Assembly: GCA_900473205.1 (NCBI GenBank)
Contig: UCLB01000012.1
Location: 124,001 to 188,000, forward strand
Source of the DNA: Hyphomicrobiales bacterium
GTDB taxonomy: Bacteria > Pseudomonadota > Alphaproteobacteria > Rhizobiales > Rhizobiaceae
Direction of reading: 5' to 3'
Length of the DNA: 64,000 bases
Shown: one piece after another, positions 54,609-61,545 of the stretch
Position numbering within the stretch: position 1 is the stretch's first letter
Layout of the letters: the number at the start of each line of letters is the position of its first letter
The notes under the pieces: model-generated
Told to the model about the DNA's origin: nothing
Database searches by the model: none
Seen by the model: only the letters and a program-made list of their open reading frames with translations
Position numbers and translations under genes: made by a program

Positions 54609-55646
54609 ATGACGGAAATAAAGTCGCATGAATTCGAACGCTTCGCCGAGAGACCGGCGGAGCGTTTTCGCGTTTTCGTGCTCTATGGTCCTGATCGCGG
54701 CCTCGTATCCGAACGCGCCTCGCTCATCGCCTCCAAGACCGGCATTGACCCCAACGACGCCTTTGCCTCGCTGAAGCTGACGGCATCCGACCTACAGGGC
54801 GATCCCGGTCGTTTGCTGGATGAAATCAATTCCATCGGCCTGTTCGGTGGCGAAAAGCTCGTCTGGGTCAAGGGTGCCGCCAATGAGAAGGCGCTGGTGG
54901 ATGCGTTGCAGGTTCTCTCGGACAATCCGCCCGAAGCAAGCTTCCTGATCATCGAAGCAGGCGACCTGAAAAAAGGAACCGGCCTTCGCAAGATCGCTGA
55001 GCCCTCCCGCGCCATCGCCGCCATACCCTGTTACGCCGATGATGCGCGGGCGCTGAATGCGCTGATCGACCAGGAACTTTCGACGGAAAATCTGCGCATC
55101 GCACCTGCTGCGCGTCAGCGGCTGGCCGAATCGCTCGGCGGCGACCGTATCGCCTCGCGCAACGAGGTGCGCAAGCTGGCGCTCTATTGCCGAGGCCATG
55201 ATGTTATCGAAGAGGACGATGTCATGGCGATCATCGGCGATGCCAGCACGGTGTCTGCCGATGACGCGGTGGATGCCATTCTGAAGGGCGACCGCAACGC
55301 CTTCTTTCACGCCACGCAGAAGATCATCGCCTCCAAGACGTCGATCTTTCTGGTGCTGCAAGGCTGCCTGCGGCAGTTCCAGTTGCTGGACCAGATGCGT
55401 GCGGAAATGGACGAGAAGAAATTGCAGGCGGGTCAGGTCATGCAGACCATGGGACGCGGTGTCCACTTCCGCCGCAAACCCGTTATCGAACGGGCGCTGC
55501 GTACATGGCAGCCAGCAGCGATTGCGCGCGAGATGAACCGTCTACAGGCAGCGATCCTGCAAAGCCGTCAGCGGCAAAGCCTGGAGGAAAGCGTGGCATT
55601 GCTGACGCTGCTGTCCACCACGTTGCAGTCGGGTCGCGCTGGATAG
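54609..55646 (+). CDS. holA: DNA polymerase III subunit delta
   Basis: HolA is the clamp-loader wrench. The 345-residue product shows FVLYGPDRGLVSERA near residue 21 and EEDDVMAIIGD in the third quarter, typical of the three-domain delta subunit without ATPase motifs. The start at 54609 follows lptE by 10 bases. Position behind leuS-lptE is the conserved one. It ends in front of a multi-hairpin repeat. Confidence 0.93.
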   Translation: MTEIKSHEFERFAERPAERFRVFVLYGPDRGLVSERASLIASKTGIDPNDAFASLKLTASDLQGDPGRLLDEINSIGLFGGEKLVWVKGAANEKALVDALQVLSDNPPEASFLIIEAGDLKKGTGLRKIAEPSRAIAAIPCYADDARALNALIDQELSTENLRIAPAARQRLAESLGGDRIASRNEVRKLALYCRGHDVIEEDDVMAIIGDASTVSADDAVDAILKGDRNAFFHATQKIIASKTSIFLVLQGCLRQFQLLDQMRAEMDEKKLQAGQVMQTMGRGVHFRRKPVIERALRTWQPAAIAREMNRLQAAILQSRQRQSLEESVALLTLLSTTLQSGRAG

Positions 55647-55666
55647 GTGCTCTACCGGCAATAAAA

Positions 55667-55694
55667 AGCCTCCGAAAGCATAGGCTCGGAGGCT
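55667..55694 (-). terminator. terminator between holA and fdxA
   Basis: AGCCTCCGA (55667-55675) pairs with TCGGAGGCT (55686-55694). On the minus strand the hairpin is followed by TTTTTAT, so it best serves the fdxA transcript; it lies beyond the repeat, 142 bases past fdxA. It also sits 20 bases after holA. Confidence 0.75.
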
Positions 55695-55708
55695 CAGTTC
55701 TCTCTTCC

Positions 55709-55820
55709 GTCATGCCGGGCTTGACCCGGCATCCAGTAGCACCGCGTCTGCGGTGCAAAATAATCTATTTCGATCAAGGACTTGATCGAAATAGACCCCG
55801 GATCAAGTCCGGGGTGACGA
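55709..55820. repeat. composite element of four hairpins between holA and fdxA
   Basis: Four perfect stems occur in a row: ATGCCGGG/CCCGGCAT (55712-55732), GCACCGC/GCGGTGC (55739-55756), a 14-bp stem CTATTTCGATCAAG (55765-55778) / CTTGATCGAAATAG (55781-55794), and CCCCGGA/TCCGGGG (55796-55814). The first and last also answer one another as outer arms (CGTCA...GTGACG). This is a mosaic palindromic element of the kind scattered in alphaproteobacterial genomes. Confidence 0.85.
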
Positions 55821-55835
55821 AGGAAAAATGGACAA

Positions 55836-56174
55836 TCAGTCGCCCTTGCCGGGCTCTGCCGAGAAATAGAGGTCGAGCTTGCCCGAAACGCCGTCCATTT
55901 CCTTGGCTTCAGGCATGGGATCGCGCTTGATGGTGATGTTGGGCCAGATGGCGGCATATTCGGCGTTGAGCGTCAGCCACTTGTCGAGACCCGGTTCCGT
56001 GTCCGGCTTGATGGCTTCTGCGGGACATTCCGGTTCGCATACACCGCAATCGATGCATTCATCGGGATTGATCGCCAGAAAGTTCTCACCCTCATAGAAG
56101 CAATCGACAGGGCAGACCTCGACGCAGTCGGTATATTTGCAGCGAATGCAGTTATCGGTCACGACATACGTCAT
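55836..56174 (-). CDS. fdxA: ferredoxin with [3Fe-4S] and [4Fe-4S] clusters
   Basis: The 112-residue ferredoxin has [18 protein letters not shown] at its start and [15 protein letters not shown] near residue 40, which matches the 7Fe FdxA type. The start at 56174 (MTYVVTDNC) is that of the family, and the upstream frame is not. It is an electron carrier whose partner is not known from context. It is the last of the minus-strand group helicase, S4 protein and fdxA, though a 242-base gap suggests its own promoter. Confidence 0.95.
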
Positions 56175-56416
56175 GATGGACTCCAGATATGCAGGCCGGG
56201 TCAAAGGGCTTGAAAGACAAGCCGTCGCCCGGAATTCAGACAGGGCATTTTGGCAAGTGAGGTAATGCCTTTGACCCAATATAGCAAGGATAAACCATAC
56301 TGAAAAAGCCGCGCTTCTTGGTGGTTTATTCCAAGCAACCGATGCGATTTGCCGGAAAGTCTTTTCACGACGGGGCTGAGTTTTGCCACAGGCGCTGGCG
56401 CACAGGGCGCGTGGCG

Positions 56417-56827
56417 TTATTCGTCGCCGCTCTCGGTCATGAATCGGTCGAGTGCCCGGCGCTCCTTCTTTGTCGGGCGGCCGCTGCCAGGTTCGCGTAC
56501 TGCCTGCTCCAGAAGCGTCAAACGGTCGCCCGGAGGGCGCGGCGGTGTTTCATCGTCATAGAGAAGCTTTGCTTCTTCAAATGGCCCGCGCCTTTCCCCA
56601 GCCGCCTTGACCACGAGAATGCGGTCCATTCGCTCGAAGCTGATGTTCAGCCGGTCGCCGATCTTTACCATATGGCTTGGCTGGCGCACGGGCGCACCGT
56701 TGACGCGAACATTGCCGGACTGGATATAACTCTGGGCAAGCGAGCGGGATTTTGCCATGCGGGCGAAGAAAAGCCATTTATCGAGGCGCTGACGCCCTGC
56801 GTCCTGTGGCTGTTGCTTCTCACCCAT
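56417..56827 (-). CDS. S4-domain RNA-binding protein (HslR-like)
   Basis: The 136-residue product carries an S4 RNA-binding domain ([19 protein letters not shown], then [22 protein letters not shown], about residues 14-60) and a basic tail ending [12 protein letters not shown]. This is the architecture of HslR/Hsp15, which binds stalled 50S subunits carrying nascent peptidyl-tRNA. It lies 101 bases downstream of the helicase gene, with a terminator in between. Confidence 0.9.
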
Positions 56828-56887
56828 CGAGCATTCCAGAAACTACGCTGTGGTTTTCCGTTCAGATATGCGTTGGAATATAAATGG

Positions 56888-56922
56888 AAAAAGCCCCCTG
56901 CTTTTACGACAAGCAGGAGGCT
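56888..56922 (-). terminator. terminator after the helicase gene
   Basis: On the minus strand AGCCTCCTGCTT pairs with AAGCAGGGGGCT (one G-T wobble), with a loop of 7 bases, followed by a T-run, 7 bases beyond the helicase stop. Confidence 0.88.
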
Positions 56923-56928
56923 CTGATC

Positions 56929-59900
56929 TTACTTCTTCAGCTGTTCCTTGAGAGCAGCCAGTTTCGCGAAAGGTGAATCCGGATCAAGCGGCTTCTCCTT
57001 GCGGGGTGGTTTTGCCTCGAAACGCTGCTGACCCTGCGGCTTGCCGCCACGGTCGTTGCGATCTGGGCGATCCTTGCGCTCGCCACGGTCATGGCGATCG
57101 TTGCGATTATTATTGCCGCCATTGCGGTCTGGGCGGGCACCCTCGCGCTTACGGTCGCCGTCACGCTTGCGATCACCATCGCGGCTGGCATTGCCACGCG
57201 GCTGGCCCTGACGCTCTTCGCCGCCTTCTGCACGACGTTCGCCATGGTTGCGGTTGGCTGGGCGGCGGTTGTCGCTGCGCTGATTGTCGTTGCGGCCACC
57301 TGGGCGCCACAGAAGAACAGGCTTCGGCTCGACAGCTTCGGTCGCAACGGCGTCCGTTGCAGTCGCGTCGTCGGCCTTTGCCTCGACCGCTGCTTCAGCA
57401 ACAGCCTCGGCAGGAGCGGCAGCTTCTTCCGAGGTCGTCTGCGTGTCGGCATCGTCCTGAGAGGTTTCGTCGGCAGAGGCTTCTTCGGTGCCTGCAGCCT
57501 CCTCAGCAACGGTCTCGCCAGCATCTGCGCCCGGCTTGGCCGCATCGGCAGTCTGGCCACCGAGGAAGGCCGCAGCTTCTTCGGCGCTCACCTGATCGGC
57601 ACGGTAGCCGAGGCCCTTGAGGATTTCTTCCATGTCATCGAGCGTGGCACCCAGAATGGAGAGCATGGCTGTCGTCGTGGTGAAACGACGGCCGTCATAG
57701 GCACCTTCCGGACGCGGCTGCGTACCTGGCTTCCACTGCAACAGCGGACGGATGAGATCGGCCAGACGCTCGAGAATGTCGATACGCACCGCACGCTTGC
57801 CGAGGAAACGGAAGCCTGCGAGCTTGTAGAACATGCGCTCATAGCTGCTGTCGGTCACGACGGATGTGCGGCCAGCGGCCAGCACGGGAATAAGATCGCC
57901 GTAACCGGGCTTGCCCAGACCGTCATTCTTCAGGGCCCAAAGCAGCGTTACCAGCTCGGCAGGAGCGGGCTTGAGCAATGCAGGCAGGAAGACGTGGTAA
58001 GCGCCGAAGCGGATGCCATAGCGGCGCATGGAGGCGCGCGCATCCTGATCCAGCGTCTTTACCTCTTCGGTCACGTCGCGACGGAACAGCACGCCGAGAT
58101 TTTCCACCAGCTGGAAGGCGAGACCCTTTGCCAGACCCTGAAGGTCTTCGGCGCGGGAAATATCGTCCAGCGGCTTCAGCACAGTTGCGATCTGGTGGTT
58201 GACGAAGCGTTCGATACGGGCAACCGCATGGTCACGCGCATTTCCGCTCAACTGTTCATCCGCCAGGATGATGACGCGCGGCTTCATGATGTTGTCGCCA
58301 GCCGAAAGGCGTGCAACGGGCTCACCCAGCCAGCGCACAAGCCCATCCGAGCTTAACGCAAGATCGCCATTGCCGCTGGCATGCAGGCGCGCAGCCCGCG
58401 CCTCGTATTCCAGCGCAAGCGCCTTCTGCGCTGCTCCTTGCACAGCCTTGGCATCTGGCCCTTCAGCTCCGGCCACCGGTGTAAACCGGAAACCCGCCAA
58501 TTGGCCGACATGATGTCCTTCAACGAAGACATCACCATTCACACTGATTTCAGCTTCAAGCATCGCATTCTCTCTTAGGCGCCTCATGAGCACAGATGTC
58601 CTGCGATCAACAAAGCGTTTCGTCAACCTTTCATGTAGAGCATCGGACAATCGATCTTCGATTTCCCGCGTCTTTTCTTGCCAGTGTGTCGGATCGGCAA
58701 GCCATCCTGGGCGGTTTGATACATACGTCCATGTTCTGATCTGCGCAATCCTTGCAGAAAGCGTATCGATCTCTCCGTCGGTGCGGTCCGCCCGGCGCAC
58801 CTGTTCGGCCATGAAATCCTCGTTGACGGCACCGCGTTTGACGAGGTCGAAGTAGAGTGTCGAAATCAGGTCGGCATGTTGTGCAGGCGCGATGCGGCGA
58901 TAATCCGGCAACGCGCAAGCCTCCCACAGTTTTTCCACCCGCTCGGCATTGGTGGTGACGTCGATGATCTCAGGGTAACGCGACAGATATTCTAGCGCCT
59001 GCTGGTCGATGGCGGGCAAAGCGCGCGACAGTCCCTGAACGGTCGGGGCCGCATCGAGACTTCCGCGCAGATTGGCGATGGAGGAATAATCGAAATTCTT
59101 GGTGCGCCATTGCAGCACTTTGACCGCATCGAACTGATGCGATTCGACACGTTCGACCAGTTCGTCATCCAGCGGATCGACCCGACCCGTCACACCAAAG
59201 GTGCCATCGCGCAGATGGCGACCGGCGCGACCGGCGATCTGGCCCATTTCACCGGGATTGAGATTGCGGAACTGATAACCGTCGAATTTGCGGTCCTGCG
59301 CAAAGGCCACATGATCGACGTCGAGATTGAGGCCCATGCCGATGGCATCCGTCGCCACCAGATATTCGACGTCTCCATTCTGATAAAGCCCGACCTGCGC
59401 GTTGCGGGTGCGCGGCGACAGAGCGCCCAGCACAACGGCAGCACCGCCGCGCTGACGGCGCACCAGTTCGGCAATCGCGTAGACCTCTTCTGCGGAAAAG
59501 GCGACGATGGCCGTGCGCTGTGGCAGGCGGGTGATTTTCTTTTGTCCGGCATAAAACAGCTGTGACAGCCGGGGCCGCTCCACCACGACGATGCCGGGCA
59601 GCAGCTTTTCCAGAATGGGCCGCATGGTGCCGGCGCCCAAAAGCAGCGTTTCCTCGCGTCCGCGCAGATGCAGAATGCGGTCTGTGAAGATGTGGCCGCG
59701 CTCGAGGTCGCCAGCAAGCTGCACCTCATCTATAGCGACGAAGGCTGCGGTCGTTTCGCGCGGCATGGCCTCGACGGTGCAGACGGAATATTTCGCTTTG
59801 GGTGGAGAAATCTTCTCTTCACCGGTGACGAGCGCCACATTGGGCGCGCCGACCTTTTCCACCAGCCGCGTATAGACCTCGCGGGCAAGCAGCCGCAGGG

Positions 59901-60027
59901 GCAGGCCGATGACACCGCTTCCATGCGCGACCATGCGTTCAATGGCATAATGCGTCTTGCCGGTATTGGTCGGGCCAAGAACGGCCGTAACACCGCGGCC
60001 GCTCAAGATCATGGGGCGAAAATTCAA
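56929..60027 (-). CDS. SUV3-like RNA helicase with long low-complexity tail
   Basis: The 1032-residue product has superfamily-2 helicase motifs: Walker A GPTNTGKTH near residue 20, IDEVQLAGD (DEAD-like) near 97, LLLGAGT and QIAGRAGR near 260-270. This matches the SUV3/MgpS RNA helicase group found in Alphaproteobacteria. From about residue 830 the protein becomes low-complexity: first Ala/Glu/Thr-rich, then Asn/Asp/Arg-rich (NRNDRHDRGERKDRP-type), and it ends in FAKLAALKEQLKK. The start is a TTG at 60027; an ATG five codons further is an alternative. Its role is probably RNA turnover or ribosome-linked. Confidence 0.88.
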   Translation of the reverse strand: MNFRPMILSGRGVTAVLGPTNTGKTHYAIERMVAHGSGVIGLPLRLLAREVYTRLVEKVGAPNVALVTGEEKISPPKAKYSVCTVEAMPRETTAAFVAIDEVQLAGDLERGHIFTDRILHLRGREETLLLGAGTMRPILEKLLPGIVVVERPRLSQLFYAGQKKITRLPQRTAIVAFSAEEVYAIAELVRRQRGGAAVVLGALSPRTRNAQVGLYQNGDVEYLVATDAIGMGLNLDVDHVAFAQDRKFDGYQFRNLNPGEMGQIAGRAGRHLRDGTFGVTGRVDPLDDELVERVESHQFDAVKVLQWRTKNFDYSSIANLRGSLDAAPTVQGLSRALPAIDQQALEYLSRYPEIIDVTTNAERVEKLWEACALPDYRRIAPAQHADLISTLYFDLVKRGAVNEDFMAEQVRRADRTDGEIDTLSARIAQIRTWTYVSNRPGWLADPTHWQEKTREIEDRLSDALHERLTKRFVDRRTSVLMRRLRENAMLEAEISVNGDVFVEGHHVGQLAGFRFTPVAGAEGPDAKAVQGAAQKALALEYEARAARLHASGNGDLALSSDGLVRWLGEPVARLSAGDNIMKPRVIILADEQLSGNARDHAVARIERFVNHQIATVLKPLDDISRAEDLQGLAKGLAFQLVENLGVLFRRDVTEEVKTLDQDARASMRRYGIRFGAYHVFLPALLKPAPAELVTLLWALKNDGLGKPGYGDLIPVLAAGRTSVVTDSSYERMFYKLAGFRFLGKRAVRIDILERLADLIRPLLQWKPGTQPRPEGAYDGRRFTTTTAMLSILGATLDDMEEILKGLGYRADQVSAEEAAAFLGGQTADAAKPGADAGETVAEEAAGTEEASADETSQDDADTQTTSEEAAAPAEAVAEAAVEAKADDATATDAVATEAVEPKPVLLWRPGGRNDNQRSDNRRPANRNHGERRAEGGEERQGQPRGNASRDGDRKRDGDRKREGARPDRNGGNNNRNDRHDRGERKDRPDRNDRGGKPQGQQRFEAKPPRKEKPLDPDSPFAKLAALKEQLKK

Positions 60028-60330
60028 CGTACTATCCGTGAAATCGACTAACTGATTGTTTTACAACACATTCGGAAAACATTCCTCCGCGTCGTCCACC
60101 ACACATGGCAATCGCGGCGCGCAAAGGCAAGGAAGGAATGCATCAAAGCTGAATTTGCCGCGATTTTTGCGTCATAAACACGCAAAATGACGATTCGGAA
60201 CAGGCTGCGAACGAATCAGCGACGAATCGCAGACTCCGTCTGATTCAGCTTTTGTTCACGGCTATATCTGGGCGGCAGTGGTTCGACGCTCCACCAGATC
60301 GTGAATCGCGTTGTTTCAGGCTTTGTCATA
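60028..60330. other. 303-base intergenic region upstream of the helicase gene
   Basis: No gene. It has several inverted repeats. AATCGCGGC (60110-60118) pairs with GCCGCGATT (60157-60165) across 38 bases and is followed by a T-run on the plus strand. CGTCAT/ATGACG is nearby, and GAATCAG (60213-60219) is answered by CTGATTC (60240-60246). The helicase promoter must lie in here on the minus strand. Confidence 0.55.
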
Positions 60331-61545
60331 TTAGAGCGGTTGGCCAGCCAGCAGGCGTGGACCGTTGGGATCGGCAGTGCCTGCCGCCTGACCGATGAAA
60401 TAGGATTTGAGGCCCGGAATCCGGTCCACGATGCCAAGGCCGAAATCGCGCGCGATCCTGATCGGGCCGACATCGTTGGAAAACAGTCGGTTCAGCACAT
60501 CCGTGGTGATACCCATGCGCACCGTGTCAAACCGCCGCCAGGACTGGTAGCGCTCAAGCACGTTGAGCGATCCGATATCGAGACCAAGGCGATCTGACTC
60601 CACGATGGTTTCCGCCAAAGCGGCGACATCCTTGAAGCCGAGATTGAGGCCCTGGCCGGAAATCGGGTGGATGCCATGGGCGGCATCGCCCGCCAGCGCT
60701 AGACGCGGCGCCACGAAAGCCCGCGCCAGCGTGAGGCCGAGCGGAAAGGCCCGCCGTGGGCTGACTGGCCTGATCGGGCCGAGCTTGTGGCCGAAGCGGC
60801 GCTCCAGCTCTTCTTCGAACAGCAGATCGTCTGCGGCTACCAACAGGTCGGCGTCTGCGGTGCGTTCCGTCCAGACCAGCGACGAGCGATTGCCCTTGAG
60901 CGGCAGAATGGCGAAAGGGCCGGATGGAAGGAAATGTTCTTCGGCACAGCCATTGTGCGGGCGTTCATGCTCCACGGTCGTGACGATGCCAGATTGATCA
61001 TAGGCCCAGTGCACGGTCTTGATGCCAGCCATATCGCGCAGGGCCGAGCGAACGCCATCGCAGGCCACCAGCAACCGGGTCTCGAAGGTCGAGCCATCGG
61101 ACAGGGTGACCACATTGCTGCGATGTTGCGCTTCGAAGCCGGTGACACTGAGGCCATGGCGAATGGTAATGCCAAGCTTTTCGCAAACGCCACGCAGGGC
61201 GCCGACCATTGCGACATTGGGAATCATATGGGCAAAAGGCTGGCCCTCTGCGACTTCGCCATCAAAGGTCAGGAAGACGGGGCGCACGGGATCTGAGGTC
61301 TTAGAATCCGTCACGATCATTTTGTTGATGGGCTGGGCTTCCGGCAGAAGCTCGTCCCAGATTCCGAAGACTTGCAGCATGCGGGTGGCGGCGGCGATGA
61401 TGGCGGAGGCGCGCATGTCCTTTTTCCAGACATCCTTGGGGGCGGCCTCGATGACCTGCACATCCAGATGTGGAGCAGCCTGCTTGGTGGCCACCGCAAC
61501 GCTCAATCCGACATATCCGCCGCCGGCAACCACCACATCGAACAT
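60331..61545 (-). CDS. FAD-dependent ubiquinone hydroxylase (UbiH/Coq6 family)
   Basis: The 404-residue flavoprotein has the FAD motif VVVAGGGYVGLSVAVA at residue 4, the ACDGVRSALR block near 155 and LAGDAAHGIHPISGQGLNLGFKDV near 280. That is the UbiH/UbiF/UbiI/UbiL family, which hydroxylates the ubiquinone ring; which carbon is attacked cannot be said from sequence. The ATG at 61545 has GAGGAGA upstream. It is divergent from tesB. In Alphaproteobacteria one such enzyme can do more than one step. Confidence 0.88.
   Translation of the reverse strand: MFDVVVAGGGYVGLSVAVATKQAAPHLDVQVIEAAPKDVWKKDMRASAIIAAATRMLQVFGIWDELLPEAQPINKMIVTDSKTSDPVRPVFLTFDGEVAEGQPFAHMIPNVAMVGALRGVCEKLGITIRHGLSVTGFEAQHRSNVVTLSDGSTFETRLLVACDGVRSALRDMAGIKTVHWAYDQSGIVTTVEHERPHNGCAEEHFLPSGPFAILPLKGNRSSLVWTERTADADLLVAADDLLFEEELERRFGHKLGPIRPVSPRRAFPLGLTLARAFVAPRLALAGDAAHGIHPISGQGLNLGFKDVAALAETIVESDRLGLDIGSLNVLERYQSWRRFDTVRMGITTDVLNRLFSNDVGPIRIARDFGLGIVDRIPGLKSYFIGQAAGTADPNGPRLLAGQPL

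Follow-up and report, generated by a model that had tools for sequence, protein, structure and literature searches.

The helicase gene and its neighbours

The window, that is, the whole stretch of 64,000 nucleotides of Hyphomicrobiales DNA that was analysed, carries on its reverse strand a gene for a Suv3-like helicase with a long C-terminal extension, followed downstream by a hairpin, a gene for an S4-domain protein and a ferredoxin gene. The features are the following:

56929..60027 (-), Suv3-like helicase gene, 1032 aa, start TTG at 60027
58606..59997 (-), residues 11-474, motor and Suv3-type C-terminal domain (Pfam and VIA fold match)
57589..58605 (-), residues 475-813, alphaproteobacterial C-terminal module without a Pfam family, tentatively tandem winged-helix
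57319..57588 (-), residues 814-903, acidic segment between predicted strands 808-813 and 904-909 (composition, AlphaFold2)
57295..57318 (-), residues 904-911, strand with an invariant Trp (W907) and the turn after it (dN/dS, alignment, pLDDT)
56992..57294 (-), residues 912-1012, basic Arg/Gly/Asn/Asp-rich linker (composition, dN/dS, pLDDT)
56932..56991 (-), residues 1013-1032, putative C-terminal docking helix, with SPFAKLAAL at 1018-1026
56890..56924 (-), terminator-like hairpin right after the helicase stop codon, 14 pairs and then a T run
56417..56827 (-), S4-domain (Hsp15-like) gene, conserved downstream neighbour, PF01479 at 57.4 bits
55836..56174 (-), FdxA-type 4Fe-4S ferredoxin gene, next downstream, Fer4 and DUF3470

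Translation of the helicase could also begin at an in-frame ATG at 60012. Its motor belongs to the Suv3 family, which is known from mitochondria: Pfam detects a DEXQ-box Suv3 motor domain (PF22527, 92 bits against a cut-off of 27) and a Helicase_C domain (PF00271, 34.9 bits against 23.5), and the nearest solved structures by sequence are yeast mtEXO Suv3 (6f4a) and human SUPV3L1. An AlphaFold2 model of the protein, built on 57 Hyphomicrobiales sequences (mean pLDDT 81.4), aligned in VIA with yeast mtEXO Suv3 6f4a_B at Z 33.2 (408 aligned, rmsd 2.8) and with human SUPV3L1 3rc3 at Z 31.2 (447 aligned, rmsd 3.2), so that the Suv3-type fold, C-terminal domain included, covers residues 1-473 (the matches end at 472-473).

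The gene has a single match in its own genome and, counting that genome, is present in all 41 close-relative genomes drawn and in 136 of 193 genomes of the class. Elsewhere in the phylum, beyond the class, the matches listed stop by position 296 of the 796 of the profile, which is inside the motor, and no viral relatives of the helicase were confirmed. Some class genomes have second Suv3-like motors (L235-L238), and the frames seen there lack the end motif described below at their terminus. At one locus (L042 / L269, G080:C2) the helicase frame is open for about 830 aa upstream of the motor, giving 1746 aa in total, an extension that is probably due to chance in high-GC DNA and not to a fusion.

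The gene known in rhizobia and Brucella as mgpS is probably the same as the helicase gene of the window. The Sinorhizobium meliloti helicase gene SMc03877 (mgpS) is reported to be up in acid (PMC4941405), and mgpS of B. melitensis is among the genes listed for attenuated mutants (PMC4070974). A literature search that mostly covered papers outside subscription returned no molecular role for the alphaproteobacterial relatives of Suv3.

The S4-domain gene adjoins the helicase or its module in 198 of the 216 loci with at least 700 bases downstream. Its product scores 60.5 bits against the NCBIfam Hsp15 model, under the cut-off of 148; Hsp15 binds 50S subunits. A hairpin lies between the two genes in the window, and the conserved adjacency may thus not mean a single transcript here; the hairpin argues against a simple helicase-S4 operon at this locus, where terminator-like sites number 8 in 4.8 kb against 4.4 in shuffles. 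Of the 154 loci with at least 1600 bases downstream, 117 have the ferredoxin gene there, in the same orientation. Between the ferredoxin gene of the window and the gene ending at 55646, positions 55709-55825 hold intergenic sequence that looks palindromic by eye and that we take to resemble a dispersed repeat of rhizobia. No Rfam element reached its gathering score in 55600-60400.

A C-terminal module of the class

Residues 475-808 of the window protein have no Pfam match at E<=10, and PHROGs and NCBIfam gave only non-significant entries (E 0.25 and E 0.12, respectively); yet among 386 class genomes, 258 have a match to a profile of residues 557-808. Predicted alone, the module region is modelled with confidence (pLDDT mostly >90). 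Searched against known folds, it gave no Foldseek match at E<=0.001 and no VIA match at Z >=5, a lack that does not show the fold to be new. Within residues 617-910, examined for a winged-helix fold, the best VIA match was 7o72 chain W (Z 4.7, 66 aligned, rmsd 3.0), followed by SelB-type proteins (Z 4.4-4.5), Pol I A49 (4.4) and TFIIH p52 (4.3), all of them below the caution level of 8; SelB, Pol I A49 and TFIIH p52 are winged-helix proteins. The predicted order of elements (helices 749-764, 786-792 and 796-805, strand 808-813, strand 904-909) might fit, as a guess from the model, a winged helix with the acidic segment inserted inside its wing.

Two charge blocks separated by a conserved strand

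The initial annotation had described a shift from about residue 830 to Ala/Glu/Thr-rich sequence and then to Asn/Asp/Arg/Gly-rich repeats. Composition bears out the shift, over residues 830-1032, and the richness in Asn, Asp, Arg and Gly; as repeats, the tail DNA holds only weak arrays, one of 36 bp (2.3 copies, 70% matches) and one of 15 bp (1.9 copies). From residue 809 to the WRP motif the protein is 33% Ala, 27% Asp+Glu and 11% Thr, with a net charge of -21, and after that motif the tail is 24% Arg, 16% Gly, 12% Asn and 12% Asp, the basic part having a net charge of +13 when counted from VLLWRP up to the last 20 residues. Both parts are predicted to be disordered, with pLDDT <50 at residues 831-899 and 917-1010. 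Between them, residues 901-910 reach a pLDDT of about 89 and contain W907, invariant in the 57 aligned sequences, which divides the acidic from the basic half and was absent from the initial annotation.

Substitution rates were obtained with our own script (Nei-Gojobori counts) on 25 sequences of the same genus. The dN/dS ratio is 0.03-0.04 in motor and module; the acidic part stands at 0.29 and the basic part at 0.15, and the ratio falls to 0.015 at residues 901-911, 0.014 at residues 1001-1012 and 0.042 at residues 1013-1032. Moreover, all 124 tails of the order with the Trp strand are net negative before it and net positive after it, a 48-aa tail (L241) standing outside this count. The disordered parts thus drift with their charge kept, while the constraint on the short motifs is as strict as that on the enzyme. 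An antisense frame of 421 aa at 57091-58356 (+), over tail and module, was set aside: it mirrors the composition of the tail, dN/dS supports the sense frame, and it is probably a by-product of codon composition.

An end motif conserved beyond the low-complexity tail

The helicase of the window ends in FAKLAALKEQLKK. This short end, noted in the initial annotation as conserved-looking, proved to be conserved, and far more widely than the sequence alone could tell. The strict form SPFAxLxxL was found in 199 of 234 usable orthologues, while in 200 shuffles of the last 110 residues of those tails it never occurred (mean 0.00, maximum 0), so that the motif is not a product of chance. It is present in 124 of 125 loci in the order and in 75 of 109 outside it, and a looser form raises these figures to 125/125 and 99/109.

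The 234 loci remained from 252 after 7 truncated at a contig end (L054, L107, L113, L119, L121, L129, L171) and 11 that lack the LGY anchor or are broken (L041, L052, L109, L144, L148, L168, L173, L175, L176, L225, L231) were dropped; eight of the latter (L041, L052, L144, L148, L168, L173, L175, L176) have the strict motif. The second Suv3-like copies L235-L238 and the duplicates L031, L061, L062, L248, L259 and L262-L265 had been left out before the 252, and two motor-less modules (L239, L240) are counted within the 234. Sampling is uneven, as 25 usable loci come from one genus and 74 from the best 80 matches of one scan.

The low-complexity part is distributed differently. Tails in the order measure 48-363 aa (median 249, 125 loci) against 37-299 aa outside it (median 61, 109 loci), where 73 of 109 have 80 aa or fewer. 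Acidic 40-residue windows occur in 123/125 loci in the order and 19/109 outside. Of the 110 loci placed outside the order by the grouping of a separate count, 108 have a net positive charge over the 40 residues that precede the motif. The initial annotation had set a complete absence of the tail from relatives as counting against its proposal, and this objection holds by half: the majority of relatives beyond the order do not have the long low-complexity part, and they retain the end motif. These lengths and counts suggest that the low-complexity tail is for the most part a tether that was lengthened in one lineage, and that the end motif is the wider feature and probably also the older one; the finding is weightier than the initial annotation had supposed, for the end motif more than for the low complexity. 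Within the same order, a genome of 1.4 Mb (L241, G027) lacks the long tail and has a tail of 48 aa ending in NPFSILSSMNNASN, with a degenerate motif NPFSILSSM. A comparison of the motif with the carboxy-terminal tag of the SSB type was rejected, as the strict motif can end up to 45 residues before the C-terminus.

With regard to the S4 protein as a candidate partner of the motif, the strict form is present in 171 of 198 loci with an adjacent S4 gene and in 10 of 18 without (Fisher p 0.003), and outside the order in 66 of 93 and 5 of 12, respectively (p 0.05), in both cases among related genomes that are not independent. Four loci (L185, L188, L217, L222) have the S4 gene and tails without the motif. 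The association is weak and may do no more than mark distant lineages.

Modules without a motor

Two genomes of one family (f120) gave matches only to the C-terminal half of the helicase profile, and a profile of the module run over 386 class genomes led to two more, making four in all with a module match. With the full core profile and E up to 10, the match in these four starts only at position 530-544. The module frames are open for 362-404 aa, the match in G143 crossing one TGA. The stand-alone modules are the following:

L267:2443-3594 (-), L268, L272 and L273, stand-alone C-terminal modules without motor in four f120 genomes, each ending in the motif

All four proteins consist of the module, an acidic stretch (short in G552) and a strand ELA(V/T)F(R/A)LK(K/R)GKA, after which come a Lys-rich stretch and (S/N)PFA(I/V)LxQL, also in all four. 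In the two f120 genomes tested, no member of the Suv3 motor family exceeded the cut-off. Because this family keeps module and tail without a motor, both would seem, judging from these sequences, to be useful on their own. One genome with the motor-less module only has a sub-threshold Suv3-motor match of 58 positions interrupted by two stops (L270, G217:C5:240881-241060), possibly a relic or a product of chance.

A motif shared with YceD

A search of the genome of the window with the motif profile (E<=10) rendered only the helicase and a frame of 17 aa, and no second motif protein; as a DNA pattern, SPFAxLxxL occurs there in three places, and the helicase copy alone closes a long frame. When the profile was run on ten other genomes, each of them gave the helicase or the module, and there were eight further matches at E<=1. 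Seven of these eight were examined: two belong to short frames, of 16 and 46 aa, two lie inside unrelated proteins (cytochrome b-like and MutS-like, by reading), and three, from 3 of the 10 genomes, at the end of open frames of 179-228 aa that are all YceD/DUF177 by Pfam. The eighth lies in a frame of 26 aa. YceD is the sole further family that ends in the motif among these seven matches.

The ends of alphaproteobacterial YceD proteins read RPFASLAALR and KPFAALAALK, and that of Escherichia coli YceD reads NPFAVLASLKRK, the C-terminal stretch of the K-12 protein (NC_000913) being EEAQKPNPFAVLASLKRK. The helicase, with xPFAxLxxLK near its C-terminus, has an end motif of the YceD type. The E. 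coli tail, which had not been picked by the profile, scores 18.4 bits against it, a value reached by none of 20,000 pooled shuffles, and three YceD tails fetched by homology score 13.0, 8.3 and 1.9 bits (reached by 0, 15 and 1153 of 20,000 shuffles, respectively). An hhalign comparison of helicase and YceD tails covers 21 columns with a probability of 90.6 and an E of 1.3e-6 for one comparison, a score that is partly circular because three of the seven YceD tails had been chosen by the motif profile. In six of the seven proteins the match to the Pfam profile of YceD takes in the motif and extends to the last or second-last position of the profile. Outside the motif the two families do not overlap in Pfam: at E<=1 the helicase gives only PF22527 and PF00271, with no YceD domain (PF02620), and the three YceD proteins give no helicase domain. 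In one genome of the window's genus, YceD was not found in 40 stretches of 20 kb (800 kb) placed by a guess at the map.

YceD is reported to be a nearly universal bacterial protein encoded beside rpmF, and 23S rRNA to be lowered both when yceD is knocked out in E. coli and when plant plastids lack DUF177A (PMC5049393). The position beside rpmF is also seen in the E. coli sequence (NC_000913). The literature surveyed named no binding partner for the YceD end. Among papers screened by title and start of abstract, mostly outside subscription, none dealt with the tail, the module or the shared motif, a screen that leaves their absence in print unproved.

Possible role of the helicase

The elements computed here are a Suv3-type motor, a module, split charge blocks, a class-wide end motif, motor-less modules and a YceD family ending in the same motif. 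The reading that we favour, with a rough probability of 0.45, is that of a Suv3-type helicase with an uncharacterised module and a flexibly tethered helix, SPFAxLxxL, that docks at a site shared with YceD. It is favoured because of the motor, the spread of the motif, the dN/dS values, the motor-independent modules, the link to YceD, the effect of YceD on 23S rRNA and the S4/Hsp15-like neighbour. The end helix would dock on the site that is also used by the end of YceD, on a pre-50S particle or a partner in 23S rRNA processing; the basic linker would hold RNA weakly, the acidic stretch would act as its counterbalance, and the motor would then remodel or clear structures of the 23S rRNA. The tether would have become long in the Hyphomicrobiales; it has 80 residues or fewer in most other alphaproteobacteria sampled. 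A helicase bearing the YceD tag suggests, at the level of sequence, that both proteins dock at one place, close to 23S rRNA or to the large subunit. Against a shared site stand the single motif protein in the helicase's own genome and the matching of YceD in only three of ten others; furthermore, nine residues can converge for unrelated reasons.

A bolder form of this reading, which we regard as rather doubtful, takes xPFAxLxxLK as a portable tag that directs its bearers to a single site on the large subunit during maturation, the bearers being YceD in the proteobacteria and a Suv3-type helicase in alphaproteobacteria at large. The latter would be a motor for large-subunit assembly or 23S rRNA quality control, and the helicase of the mitochondrial degradosome would descend from, or be kin to, a ribosome-linked helicase. 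If this were true, the motor-less modules of the f120 family would be stripped adaptors at the same site.

It could also be the case that the end helix docks in cis, on its own module or on that of a second copy, so as to control activity or form a dimer. The helix reaches a pLDDT of 70-84 in the full chain and of 84-88 when the C-terminal half is modelled alone (AlphaFold2), the motor-less copies retain both module and helix, and the tail of human SUV3 (722-786) is reported to be required for dimerisation (PMC10253155). Such a docking is judged, however, on pLDDT, which holds no inter-domain error, and is hence unproved; a short amphipathic helix can reach such values alone, and YceD bears the motif though Pfam shows only the YceD domain there. 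Docking in cis seems to us unlikely.

The initial annotation had placed the helicase in an assembly like the RNA degradosome. In that case it would be a degradosome helicase as mitochondrial Suv3 is, with a tail that recruits PNPase or RNase E and concentrates RNA. The proposal keeps in its favour the Suv3 motor and the disordered, charge-segregated tail, whose acidic and basic blocks resemble those of the RNase E of the same genome (L266, G000:C6:114223-116025), a protein that ends in KGGWWQRRGFF. Human and yeast Suv3 act in degradosomes (PMC5818665; PMC10253155), and the mitochondrial members of the family are RNA-degradosome helicases (PMC5818665). It fares worse in the details: the GWW end of Caulobacter RNase E binds PNPase (PMC3376730), and the helicase has no GWW motif; its own end motif was found on YceD and not on RNase E; the motor-less modules keep the whole tail; and in the available text of a Caulobacter RNase E pull-down, RhlB, RhlE, CCNA_01546 and Rho are named and the word Suv3 is absent (PMC5472812). 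A degradosome helicase is thus a reasonable and partly supported reading that we nevertheless hold to be unlikely. Since the tail would tether a docking helix of the YceD type and loss of yceD lowers 23S rRNA, we infer that work on the large subunit or 23S rRNA is likelier than work in an RNase E degradosome.

Lastly, selection might act on nothing but the composition of the low-complexity part, as a tail that forms condensates or binds RNA, and the end motif would be incidental. This agrees with a charge pattern kept in 124/124 tails of the order while the sequence drifts and with the acidic dN/dS of 0.29, and is nevertheless improbable, as the long part is missing in most loci outside the order (73/109 tails <=80 aa) and the motif mostly stays.

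Comparison with known systems

The helicase resembles Suv3/SUPV3L1 of mitochondria over residues 1-473, where the motor domains agree both in sequence and in predicted fold; to these the window protein adds the module 475-813 and a tail ending in SPFAxLxxL. When the motif profile was run against a PDB set (E<=10), no Suv3 chain was found, the sole match being CHMP4B at chance level (E 4.6). With the tail of alphaproteobacterial RNase E, the helicase shares the arrangement of acidic and basic blocks followed by a short conserved docking motif, which is GWW in RNase E and has no counterpart of that type in the helicase. With YceD/DUF177 (PF02620), the large ribosomal RNA subunit accumulation protein, it shares the C-terminal motif itself, though YceD is a protein of about 170-230 aa. 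The shared motif offers a direct, testable bridge between the helicase and 23S rRNA accumulation, and may in turn give YceD a binding site to look for.
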